Source: Polynucleobacter sp. AP-Latsch-80-C2
GTDB lineage: Bacteria > Pseudomonadota > Gammaproteobacteria > Burkholderiales > Burkholderiaceae
Assembly (NCBI RefSeq): GCF_018882185.1
Contig: NZ_JACVOY010000001.1
Coordinates: forward strand, 372,001 to 436,000
DNA: 64,000 nt
Direction of reading: 5' to 3'
A model generated the notes under the pieces. The model searched no databases. It saw nothing but the letters and a program-made list of their open reading frames with translations, and had not been told where the DNA came from. Shown here one piece after another: positions 31,095 to 34,817 of this stretch. Positions within the stretch are counted from its first letter, which is position 1. The number at the start of each line of letters is the position of its first letter. The position numbers and the translations under genes were made by a program.

Positions 31095-31217
31095 CAGGCA
31101 TTCAAAGATATTGCTCTAGTAAAGAGCTAAACCAATATGGTGTTGTTAAGCCATATCCTCAAATCTACAGGGGTGATGTAGAAAAGACCGCAAGGTCAGT
31201 TTCAAGGAGTAGTCATC
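31095..31217 (+). promoter_or_regulatory. puf leader with three small hairpins
   Basis: Three stem-loops lie before pufB: GCTCT/AGAGC (31113-31127), ATATGG/CCATAT (31135-31156) and GACC-GCAA-GGTC with a GNRA tetraloop (31186-31197). A strong AAGGAG ribosome site follows. No PufQ-like ORF is present here. The structures could set the 5' end or the stability of processed pufBA mRNA. Confidence 0.4.
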
Positions 31218-31364
31218 ATGAGTGAAAACAGATCTATATCTGGGCTTACCGATGCAGAAGCTAAAGAATTCCATACATTTTATATGCAAGGTCTTCTTGG
31301 ATTTACTGCAATCGCTGTCGTCGCGCACATACTTGTATGGGCATGGCGTCCATGGTTCTTTTGA
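31218..31364 (+). CDS. pufB: Light-harvesting 1 beta polypeptide
   Basis: A 48-aa LH1 beta chain that spans the membrane once and ligates bacteriochlorophyll through histidines. The polar N-terminus [19 protein letters not shown] carries the conserved helix, [19 protein letters not shown] is the span with its ligand His, and the chain ends in WRPWFF. The ribosome site AAGGAG is ideal. Unusually, the alpha gene does not follow at once: 281 bases, mostly a separate 73-codon frame, intervene. Confidence 0.96.
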
Positions 31365-31413
31365 TGCAGTAGTAAGTACATAGTAAACGTAGTCAATTAG
31401 AGGGAGTGTTTTT

Positions 31414-31635
31414 ATGAAGATCAATACGGATTTAATGCATAAACATGTTTTGCATGACACCTGGTCATTCAAAATTATTTTTTTGATTAGTTACGTGGTG
31501 CTCTTTGTTGTAGCACTTTTTTTAATTGTCTTACCTGCATCACAGAAAAGTTGGTTATTTTCTGGTGCTGACGGAGGTTCATTCTTCAAGTCAGTTGAAA
31601 CAGGTGTTTACGGCTTTATGTCTTACTTAAATTAG
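31414..31635 (+). CDS. Unknown 73-aa single-span protein between pufB and pufA
   Basis: A 73-residue frame with its own GAGGGAG ribosome site. A polar N-terminus ([17 protein letters not shown]) is followed by one strongly hydrophobic span (about residues 19-42, [20 protein letters not shown]) and a C-terminal tail [10 protein letters not shown]...[12 protein letters not shown]. It is neither an LH1 alpha nor beta chain: it lacks the ligand His inside the span. It does not look like PufX, and it is in the wrong place and lacks the usual C-terminus for PufQ. Placement between two LH1 genes with independent translation signals points to a ring component or assembly factor, which is inference. 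Confidence 0.8.
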
Positions 31636-31645
31636 GAGAAATATT

Positions 31646-31822
31646 ATGTGGAGAATTTGGAAACTATACGACCCACTACGTGCGATGGTTGCACAGGGCG
31701 TTTTTCTCTTTGCTTTGGCAGCAATGATTCATCTCATTTTATTGAGCACAGTTCAATACAAATGGCTGGATGGTATGAGTCAAGAGCAGTACAAAGCAGC
31801 TATATCAGCAGCGAAGAAGTAA
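31646..31822 (+). CDS. pufA: Light-harvesting 1 alpha polypeptide
   Basis: A 58-aa LH1 alpha chain. [18 protein letters not shown] is the conserved interfacial N-terminus, and [17 protein letters not shown] is the span with the bacteriochlorophyll-ligating His29. YKWLDG follows, with a short charged tail ending [13 protein letters not shown] precedes the ATG by eight bases. The longer frame starting at 31648 is only a shadow of this gene. Two stable hairpins lie between it and pufL. Confidence 0.96.
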
Positions 31823-31836
31823 TTAGATGTGCAAAC

Positions 31837-31872
31837 CGTAGGCGAATTTCTAGAAATAGTGATTCGTCTACG
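31837..31872 (+). promoter_or_regulatory. Intercistronic hairpin 1 (pufA-pufL)
   Basis: CGTAGGCGAAT (31837-31847) pairs with ATTCGTCTACG (31862-31872), ten Watson-Crick pairs and one G-U, over a 14-base loop. It is in the position of the Rhodobacter pufA-pufL stem-loops that slow 3' decay and give excess pufBA over pufLM mRNA. Confidence 0.7.
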
Positions 31873-31887
31873 CAAGATTAATTTAAT

Positions 31888-31904
31888 GTGAGAAAAATTC
31901 TCAC
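31888..31904 (+). promoter_or_regulatory. Intercistronic hairpin 2 (pufA-pufL)
   Basis: GTGAGAA and TTCTCAC pair around an AAA loop, immediately before the AAGGAG ribosome site of pufL. Besides protecting pufBA mRNA, it may influence pufL translation. Confidence 0.6.
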
Positions 31905-31921
31905 TGTGTAAGGAGCGCTAA

Positions 31922-32746
31922 ATGGCCATGCTCAACTTTGAAAAAAAATACCGCGTGCGCGGTGGGACTCTAATAGGAGGAGATCTTTTTGATTTCTGGG
32001 TAGGCCCTTTCTACGTCGGATTTTTTGGGGTAACCACTATATTCTTTGCATTCCTTGGGACTGCAATGATTCTTTGGGGGACATCCCAAGCGGGCGTCTT
32101 TAATCCTTGGCAAATAAATATTGCCCCTCCGGATTTGAAATATGGGTTAGGCGTAGCTCCTTTGATGGAGGGTGGATTATGGCAAATCATTACTATCTGC
32201 GCCTTAGGAGCATTTGGTTCTTGGGCAATGCGTGAGGTGGAAATTTCTCGAAAATTGGGAATGGGCCTTCATGTACCAGTTGCTTTTAGTATGGCCATCT
32301 TTGCGTATTTCACTTTGGTTGTAATTCGCCCAGTGTTAATGGGTGCATGGGGCTACGGTTTTCCCTATGGAATATTGAGCCATTTAGATTGGGTATCGAA
32401 TACTGGGTATCAGTATCTTCACTTTCATTACAACCCAGCCCACATGATTGCGGTAACACTATTTTTTACAACAACATTAGCGCTTGCGCTGCATGGAGCT
32501 TTGATCTTATCTTCTACGAATCCACAACCTGGGCAGCCGGTCAAAACTCCTGAGCACGAGGATACTTTCTTTAGAGACATTATTGGATATTCCGTTGGAA
32601 CATTGGGCATTCATCGTCTTGGATTATTCCTAGCCTTAGCGGCTGTATTTTGGAGTGCTGTTTGTATTGTTATTAGTGGCCCCTTCTGGACAAAGGGTTG
32701 GCCTGAATGGTGGACATGGTGGTTGAATTTGCCAATCTGGGGTTAG
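31922..32746 (+). CDS. pufL: Photosynthetic reaction centre L subunit
   Basis: A 274-aa five-span membrane protein that binds the special-pair and accessory bacteriochlorophylls, bacteriopheophytin and quinone with Puf[21 protein letters not shown] is the diagnostic start. Bacteriochlorophyll and iron ligands lie in [29 protein letters not shown] and [21 protein letters not shown]. The length matches purple-bacterial PufL. An AAGGAG ribosome site precedes it and pufM follows after 32 bases. Confidence 0.97.
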
Positions 32747-32778: not shown

Positions 32779-33777
32779 ATGGAATATCAAAATCTATTTA
32801 CACAAACACAAGTAACTGGTCCTGCGAGTCATGGCGTTCCGATCAACGCCTACGATATGCGTGAGCGAACTCGCTCTATTGGATTTAGTCATTTGATGGG
32901 GCGCATTGGTAATGCGCAGCTCGGACCTATATACCTTGGGAGATTAGGGGTCGCATCACTAATATTTGGGATGACAGCATTTTTCATTATTGGTATGAAT
33001 ATGCTGGCCCAGGTTGGCTGGAATCCTTTGCAATTTGTGAGGAAATTATTTTGGCTCTCTCTAGATCCTCCAGCACCAAAGTATGGTTTAACCCTTGCGC
33101 CATTAAATGAAGGGGGCTGGTGGTCAATTGTTGGATTATTTTTAACGATCTCAATTATGCTTTGGTGGCTTAGAACCTTCCGTAGGGCTCAGGCTCTTGG
33201 AATGGGTACCCATGTACCTTGGGCATTCGCATCAGCAATTTGGTTGTTCTTGGTATTAGGTCTGATTCGTCCCGTGCTGATGGGTAGCTGGAGCGAAGCG
33301 GTACCATTTGGTATCTTTTCTCACCTAGATTGGGTATCCGCCTTTTCAATTCGCTACGGCAACTTGTTTTATAACCCATTCCATATGCTGTCCATTGTGT
33401 TTCTTTATGGGTCAGTTCTTTTGTTTGCCATGCACGGCGCAACTATTCTGGCAGTGAGTCGATTTGGTGGTGAAAGAGAAATTGAACAAATTGTCGATCG
33501 CGGAACCGCATCTGAAAGGGCTGCTTTATTCTGGAGATGGACTATGGGCTTTAACGCTACCATGGAATCCATTCACCGTTGGGCCTGGTGGTTTGCTGTA
33601 CTCACTCCATTAACAGGTGGCATTGGAATTTTACTAACCGGCACCGTTGTGGATAACTGGTATCTATGGGCTGTTAAGCATAATATGGCGCCAACTTATC
33701 CTGCAATATATGGGACCGTTTCTGATCCTGCTTTAAAAGCACCTTCAGCTCCAGTAGCAATAGGGGAGAAAAAATGA
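32779..33777 (+). CDS. pufM: Photosynthetic reaction centre M subunit
   Basis: A 332-aa partner of PufL with five membrane spans. Conserved segments are [31 protein letters not shown], the special-pair region [19 protein letters not shown] and iron/quinone-binding [19 protein letters not shown]. The C-terminal tail, rich in Ala and Pro, extends to the periplasm and fits a reaction centre that carries a PufC cytochrome. The stop overlaps the pufC start (ATGA). Confidence 0.97.
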
Positions 33778-34817
33778 AAAACGTTCGCCAAAAAATTGCC
33801 ATTGCATTTAGTGTTTTGGCAATCCTTACGCTTACGGCGTGTGAGCGACCACCAGTTGAGTCAAAGCAAACTGGATACCGCGGCACTGGTATGGATCAGA
33901 TTAATAATCCTAGAACACAAGAGCAGCTAGCTAAGATTAATGAAATGCCAGCTGGCATACCCGCTTCCCCTGATGGACCGAAGGCTGGGGCAACGTACAA
34001 AAATGTTAAGGTGTTAAATAACCTCAGCACTGCTCAATTCGGTGCTTTTATGGTCTCAATGACTGCATGGGTCGCCCCTAAAGAGGGTTGCTCTTATTGC
34101 CATAATGTTCAGAATTTTGCTGACGATTCTCTCTACACCAAAACTGTAGCTAGAAGAATGATTCAGATGAATCAGCAAATTAATAGCAATTGGACTGATC
34201 ACGTAAAACAAACGGGCGTAACCTGTTACACCTGCCATAGAGGTAATAACATCCCTCAAAATGTTTGGTTTAACCCAGAAGAAAAGCGTGGCGGTAACAT
34301 GCTAGGCAATGCAAACGGACAAAATGATCCTGCTCCAGCAGTTGCTTACACTTCTTTGCCTAATAAACCATTTGCAGCCTATTTGGTTGAAAAAGGTGAT
34401 CCAGCAAGGATAGTTGGCAAAACAGCTCTTCCTACGGGGAACAAAGCAACCCTTCAAAGCACGGAAAATGTATATGGAATGATGACTCACATGTCTCATT
34501 CTCTGGGGGTTAACTGTACTTACTGCCATAACTCTCAGAACTTCTCTAGCTGGGAGCAAAGTACACCACAGCGAGTGCAGGCTTGGCATGGAATCCAGAT
34601 GCTCAAAGACGTCAATACAAACTTTTTGACATCCTTAGAAAGTGTATTCCCACCAAATCGACTCGGGCCCACTGGTGACGTTGCTAAAGCAAACTGCGCC
34701 ACCTGTCATCAAGGTGTAAATAAACCACTCTTAGGTCAAAGTATGTTGAAGGATTATCCGTATCTTGCTCCAAATAGAGATATGCCAAAAGATAGCACCC
34801 ATAGCGCAGCAAAATAG
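33774..34817 (+). CDS. pufC: Reaction-centre tetraheme cytochrome c subunit
   Basis: A 347-aa lipoprotein (lipobox LTAC, Cys23) bound to the periplasmic face of the reaction centre, re-reducing the special pair. Four CxxCH haem sites are visible: Cys106-His110, Cys151-His155, Cys248-His252 and Cys308-His312. Met ligands are likely in [15 protein letters not shown] and the [10 protein letters not shown] region. It would accept electrons from soluble carriers such as the HiPIP or a cytochrome c. It is the last gene before a strong terminator-like hairpin. Confidence 0.97.

Follow-up and report, generated by a model that had tools for sequence, protein, structure and literature searches.

Our analysis indicates that ORF73, a small gene of the puf operon of the freshwater bacterium Polynucleobacter sp. 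AP-Latsch-80-C2, located between pufB and pufA, almost certainly encodes a paralogue of the LH1 beta polypeptide that has diverged from it, as judged from profile comparisons. The protein is a beta by descent and not by defining chemistry; since that chemistry is gone although the descent is beta, we do not file it as an LH1 beta. The features of the locus are listed in Table 1, in the numbering of the window, that is, the whole stretch of 64,000 nucleotides that was analysed.

Table 1. Features of ORF73 and its surroundings in the window.
Feature	Position	Strand	Basis or remark
pufB 5' leader, structured	31135..31197	+	three hairpins and a probable pseudoknot (31157-31160 with 31170-31173); covariation, folding
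pufB, LH1 beta, short form	31218..31364	+	NCBIfam pufB_517; 2 residues after WRPW
ribosome-binding site of ORF73, GAGGGAG	31400..31406	+	sequence
ORF73, 73 aa	31414..31635	+	ATG 31414 to TAG 31635; very probable pigment-less LH1-beta paralogue
parts of ORF73			span about residues 18-41; conserved W47; tail 53-73
ribosome-binding site of pufA, AGGAGA	31634..31639	+	sequence; overlaps ORF73 stop codon
pufA, LH1 alpha	31646..31822	+	NCBIfam pufA_517
strong hairpin between pufA and pufL	31837..31872	+	z -4.87 for 31823-31921
pufL	31922..32746	+	NCBIfam
pufM	32779..33777	+	NCBIfam
pufC	33774..34817	+	NCBIfam

The locus has the order bchZ, pufB, ORF73, pufA, pufL, pufM and pufC, and the neighbours of ORF73 were named by NCBIfam matches (pufB_517, E 8.8e-24; pufA_517, E 2.8e-17; pufL, pufM and pufC were also matched). 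The first-pass annotation of this DNA had described a full frame with its own ribosome-binding site between pufB and pufA, whose product has one membrane span and no histidine in that span; this description was confirmed from the sequence, the span being a predicted one. ORF73 lies downstream of pufB, so it is not at the pufQ-type place directly upstream. The ribosome-binding site of ORF73 is a good one, and that of pufA overlaps the ORF73 stop codon. In 41 of 44 loci the ORF ends 9-12 nt before pufA, and in two of the remaining three the distance was counted from PufA residue 6. These features suggest translational coupling of the two genes. The protein has a single match in the window's own genome, and Polynucleobacter sp. 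UK-Gri1-W3 carries an identical one.

ORF73 is a real gene, since dN/dS analysis demonstrated purifying selection in its frame. Pooling 14 distinct sequences, drawn from Polynucleobacter and its near relatives, gave a dN/dS of 0.171 in frame and of 1.50, 2.13, 1.02, 0.32 and 1.92 in the other five frames; the 0.32, which belongs to an antisense frame, is taken as a shadow of the true frame. By part, dN/dS was 0.12 for residues 48-73 and 0.20 for residues 1-47. The tail is likewise the most conserved part by entropy (1.40 for residues 53-73, 1.80 for the span and 2.99 for the N-terminus). V65, Y66, M69 and S70 were invariant across 17 members; V65, Y66 and S70 can be called nearly unchanging, and W47 and M69 likewise but less strictly. 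Nevertheless, ORF73 evolves much faster than its neighbours: identity between the window and locus L073 was 38% for the ORF73 protein, 79% for PufB and 84% for PufA. Fast change together with a few near-fixed residues would fit a protein of few copies with one conserved contact. An AlphaFold model built from eight close relatives gave a simple fold at low confidence (pLDDT 69, pTM 0.35), with helices at residues 3-39, 42-48 and 54-72.

The beta origin became apparent with profiles. Searched as a single protein, ORF73 gave only matches below the cut-off in Pfam and NCBIfam (CbiN, DUF6480, PRK02898) and no match in PHROGs, and PF00556 matched 2 of 17 single members, with a best E-value of 0.32. 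A profile of 17 ORF members was then compared with the PDB at E-values up to 10, giving 41 rows, the first 30 of which were antenna chains, most named beta and none alpha. The best chains were 8z81_B (1e-12), 7xxf_B (8e-11) and 9m8m_B (4e-10), and the first unrelated chain appeared at E 0.59; no member of the family was itself found in the PDB in this search. A family set of 61 rows was assembled from 37 distinct proteins of the PufC-based loci described below and 24 chosen from a locus scan, near copies being omitted. Its profile matched six long PufB at E 4.9e-27 over 73 columns and short PufB at E 8.4e-12, and in both cases none of 48 decoys, which were overlapping and hence not independent 75-column windows of the PufL, PufM, PufC and BchZ alignments, scored higher. 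The best decoy (E 7.5e-4) was far below these matches.

The alignment also revealed what has been lost. All 58 beta rows (40 distinct) have the bacteriochlorophyll-ligating histidine and none of the 61 family members does; these members have Q (30), V (10), I (6), L (5), K (3), T (3), S (2), A (1) or G (1) at the ligand place; the residue in the window is Ile. The tryptophan at the end of the span was retained in 59 of 61 members. The N-terminal SGLT..EA.EFH motif was lost, its EFH histidine remaining in 2 and its SGLT serine in 5 of the 61.

Other origins were weighed against beta. Kinship with LH alpha was considered on account of a single-sequence PDB search, whose one weak match was the B-808/866 alpha chain 8ydm_A (E 0.077). 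With the family profile, 3 of the 48 decoys scored higher than alpha, and we read this kinship as weak at best beside the beta match. A wider profile, made of the ORF, the upstream ORFs described below and long beta, placed LH alpha above all 48 decoys (E 0.0021); this profile and one of the upstream ORFs only both did so, at E 0.002-0.007. The first-pass annotation had also offered a diverged PufQ-like factor. That kinship was not borne out with the family profile, against which 3 of 48 decoys scored higher than PufQ, and PF05398 (PufQ) did not match ORF73, nor did any of the 18 relatives searched exceed the Pfam cut-off. With the wider profile no decoy outscored PufQ, weakly (E 2.1e-4), and the PufQ profile comparison gave E 0.001-0.002, with one-side-reversed controls no better than E 0.011; the PufQ set for this work contained 9 of 13 matches, after omission of a near copy and of three that have no pufBA next to them. 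Since the wider profile raised LH alpha above all decoys as well, the PufQ signal is not specific; a distant kinship with PufQ or alpha is possible. As for PufX, protein-W and the gamma chain, named in the same annotation by analogy, kinship found no support: no PDB chain of these names, whose presence in the searched set we presume, occurred among the 41 matches at E up to 10, and the 30 antenna chains were followed by chance matches only.

Each of the 8 named loci has a homologue of ORF73, 67-100% identical, between its pufB and pufA genes. The PufC family was present in 43 of 150 relatives searched; 37 of these genomes provided 40 stretches, of which 36 show both pufB and pufA and 4 lack pufB/pufA. 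No stretch came from the other six genomes, namely that of the window itself and five whose contigs are short or partial. The 36, the window and the eight named loci make up 45 loci, which are not 45 genomes as some share a contig. The ORF was present between pufB and pufA in 44 of the 45; it is 73-76 aa long, except in L072, where an early start makes it 86, and the sole locus without it, L075, has a long PufB; the family set drew on 43 loci, since the motif filter also missed L074. Second PufC-like genes, 43-45% identical, were observed in G047, G091 and G140 (L055, L071 and L078), with no pufB/pufA in the stretch.

The ORF73 profile recognises PufB too, and profiles of this kind served to find both the upstream ORFs and the long betas. 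A PufL census guards against the bias of finding loci in this way. In the census, a PufL search was set beside the ORF73-profile search in 399 Burkholderiales genomes; PufL was above the cut-off in 46, all of which also match the ORF73 profile, and three arrangements were distinguished. Thirty-eight genomes have the ORF downstream of a pufB whose product ends 1-3 residues past WRPW; the position between pufB and pufA was verified in 37, the contig of G141 ending before pufA. Five (G119, G341, G371, G268, G254) have no ORF and a PufB with a tail of 27-28 residues, this PufB being itself the profile match. The remaining three (G158, G277, G308) carry a related ORF upstream of a short pufB. In G277 and G308 the profile match is the short PufB, as is the best match in G158; the upstream ORFs themselves came from the locus scan, at E 4e-7 to 9e-6, and their high later scores come from a model built on them. 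None of the 46 genomes combines two arrangements within the sequence that was read, which extended about 1.5 kb or less to each side and was in some cases cut by contig ends. Outside the 46 stand G235 and G388 (PufL match under the cut-off), G362 (profile match, PufB and PufA, no PufL), and G369 and G452 (profile matches at E 3e-4, five stops). An unusual, very diverged PufA (MWRYWRIVDPRKAIILTG...) was noticed in G327, G298 and G164 (L116, L117, L119), where the ORF between pufB and pufA is kept.

Beyond Burkholderiales the pattern is looser. The class search gave matches in 10 of 369 genomes. An upstream ORF accompanies a short PufB in G601. G739 has only a long PufB, and G803 and G589, which belong to other orders, have only a short PufB, the sequence read there containing no such ORF. 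In G760 there is a beta-like protein, but the stretch shows no pufA, and the matches of G622 and G727, with no pufB or pufA nearby, are taken as chance. G508, also outside the order, has a long PufB and an upstream ORF that still bears the ligand histidine; this beta-like ORF (L125:1381-1695) adjoins the long-tailed PufB gene. Those matches with an E-value of 1e-10 or below whose loci were read are located in puf operons. On a PufL tree, from which L099 was dropped as too short and in which two loci occur twice, 4 changes account for the label "ORF downstream, short beta", compared with a shuffled mean of 21.3; with 4 changes, a single origin is not established.

PufB has the pigment site without the tail and ORF73 has the tail without the histidine. 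An ancestral long beta therefore looks, from these sequences, as if it had been divided in two, the pigment going to PufB and the tail to the paralogue; a duplication would have been followed by a division of labour. The upstream ORF of G508 is a possible intermediate of this split.

For the conserved 63-base pufB leader, alignment of 12 chosen leaders showed at least one pair-keeping double change in 12 of 15 consensus pairs, with several pairs broken in some rows. The leader of the window has a moderate folding advantage over shuffled versions of itself (z -2.19; 4 of 200 reached its level). In 49 of 76 distinct leaders, a stretch of four upstream bases is fully complementary to the beginning of the loop of the middle hairpin; the scan picks the best fit and is hence biased, and 24 of the 76 are without such a hairpin. 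The pairings seen, CCCC-GGGG, GCCC-GGGC and TCCC-GGGA, suggest that the leader probably forms a pseudoknot. No Rfam family matches it at gathering thresholds. The interval between pufB and ORF73 showed no RNA structure (z +2.18). ORF73 is located in the LH1 part of the operon, ahead of the pufA-pufL hairpin, which by analogy may stabilise the LH1 portion of the mRNA; ORF73 would lie in that portion. A second hairpin between pufA and pufL was observed at 31888-31904.

An accessory role in LH1, as proposed in the first-pass annotation, is plausible for a histidine-less, single-span product whose strong matches (E 1e-10 or below), where read, are located in puf operons; the kin suggested there were not supported, and the beta origin was missed. 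The most likely of the readings considered is a ring cap or spacer, with an assembly factor close behind. We would put the former, a non-pigmented, beta-like subunit of RC-LH1, at a little short of an even chance, and we infer its topology, copy number, ring place and effect as follows. ORF73 would insert like a beta chain and would take a beta-type place at the edge or a break of the LH1 ring, in few copies per reaction centre. The conserved tail (V65, Y66, M69, S70) would make contact on the periplasmic face, and the pigment ring, interrupted at ORF73, would allow easier quinone exchange or have its size set. The duplication pattern, the fast change with a conserved tail and the place in the LH1 message favour this reading. 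In contrast, evolution so much faster than that of PufB and PufA is unusual for a ring-packed helix and fits a single copy or an assembly factor, and the loss of the N-terminal motif may mean that ORF73 no longer pairs with alpha. Operons without the ORF exist, both in the five long-PufB Burkholderiales and in G803 and G589 with short PufB. The low rate of PF00556 matches, the lack of a member in the PDB and the low AlphaFold confidence also count against it. A more specific version, which we consider less likely than not, is that a "beta-prime" derived from the Burkholderiales beta split is a regular single-copy subunit interrupting the pigment ring as a quinone gate, independent of PufX and protein-W. 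If so, the gate would be built from an antenna protein itself.

The assembly factor, which has a considerable though clearly minority chance in our estimate, would act as a dummy beta, binding alpha, PufB or new pigment for a time while LH1 is being built, and would be absent from the finished complex. PufQ and LhaA, which have roles in LH1 assembly, are the model for it. The size and single span of ORF73 resemble those of PufQ, its span changes fast while the tail is conserved, and PufQ was above the Pfam cut-off in none of the relatives searched; moreover, G158, G277, G308, G508 and G601 have related ORFs upstream of pufB, in the place of pufQ, and the combined profile ranks PufQ, weakly, above every decoy. 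However, three decoys outscore PufQ with the family profile alone, the wider profile lifts LH alpha too, and the ORF lies, according to the available text on Roseateles (PMC10037100), in the abundant LH1 message, which is more than such a factor seems to need.

That none of the 46 Burkholderiales genomes has both a long-tailed PufB and a separate ORF, and that the tail is the best conserved part, might also mean that ORF73 carries a periplasmic beta tail needed at few ring places, for example for docking of the PufC cytochrome, without opening the ring. We regard this as unlikely, since G803 and G589 have a short PufB with neither, G508 has the upstream ORF and the long PufB together, and no partner was identified. 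It is very improbable that translation of the ORF outweighs its product, by setting the PufB:PufA ratio or by coupling to pufA: the short, steady distance to pufA and the overlapping ribosome-binding site agree with such a spacer, whereas purifying selection on the protein, the four residues invariant in 17 members and the placement of related ORFs upstream of pufB in some lineages do not. A cap or assembly role, if true, would mean that an antenna subunit was recruited as a non-pigmented structural or assembly part. ORF73 also offers a route to how Burkholderiales core complexes pass quinones.

The gene had been called unrecognised, which holds for its identity but not for its existence, since an ORF in this place, of unknown function, is described in the accessible text of two publications. 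In Roseateles depolymerans, the locus tag of ORF74 stands between those of pufB and pufA, and the three genes are cotranscribed in a major 1-kb mRNA; pufA, pufB and ORF74 were the most reduced transcripts of a sigma-factor mutant, with 0.71, 1.09 and 2.34% remaining, respectively (PMC10037100). The puf operon of Rubrivivax gelatinosus contains two ORFs of unknown function, of which ORF2 is upstream of pufA (PMC12817894, citing Nagashima 1994). Alignment of ORF2 with alpha chains gave 10.1-14.5% identity to PufA2 and no histidine at the alpha-ligand place, and pufA2 was concluded not to be derived from ORF2; the comparison described there covered alpha chains only (PufA, PufA2; PMC12817894). 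In the literature searched, where subscription papers were mostly missing, no link of ORF74 or ORF2 to beta was found, and within that literature the beta kinship and the tail partition are new here. Thus, an ORF known from Rubrivivax since 1994, by the citation in PMC12817894, gains an identity and a testable role.

From these published descriptions, ORF74 and ORF2 resemble ORF73 in their place beside pufA, and ORF2 is also alike in that it has no histidine at the alpha-ligand place and ORF73 no pigment histidine. PufX, protein-W and gamma are small membrane accessories of RC-LH1, the first two of which keep the ring open (PMC10214105, PMC7806223), while protein-W differs from the single-span ORF73 in having three membrane helices, as the accessible text describes it (PMC7806223). 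PufQ (PF05398) is similar to ORF73 in its size, single span and puf operon, but its gene is upstream of pufB and that of ORF73 downstream. The closest likeness is with beta chains: the long-tailed PufB of G119, G268 and G254 is like ORF73 along the whole length, tail included, and 7xxf_B, 8z81_B and 9m8m_B align to about residues 12-67 of the ORF73 profile. Unlike ORF73, long-tailed LH beta chains retain the ligand histidine and the EFH motif. The 105-aa antenna-domain chain 8k5o_4, a weak match to the ORF73 profile (E 0.15), stands in one copy beside 16-fold chains in a solved complex, and by analogy may serve as a precedent for a minor antenna paralogue in the ring.
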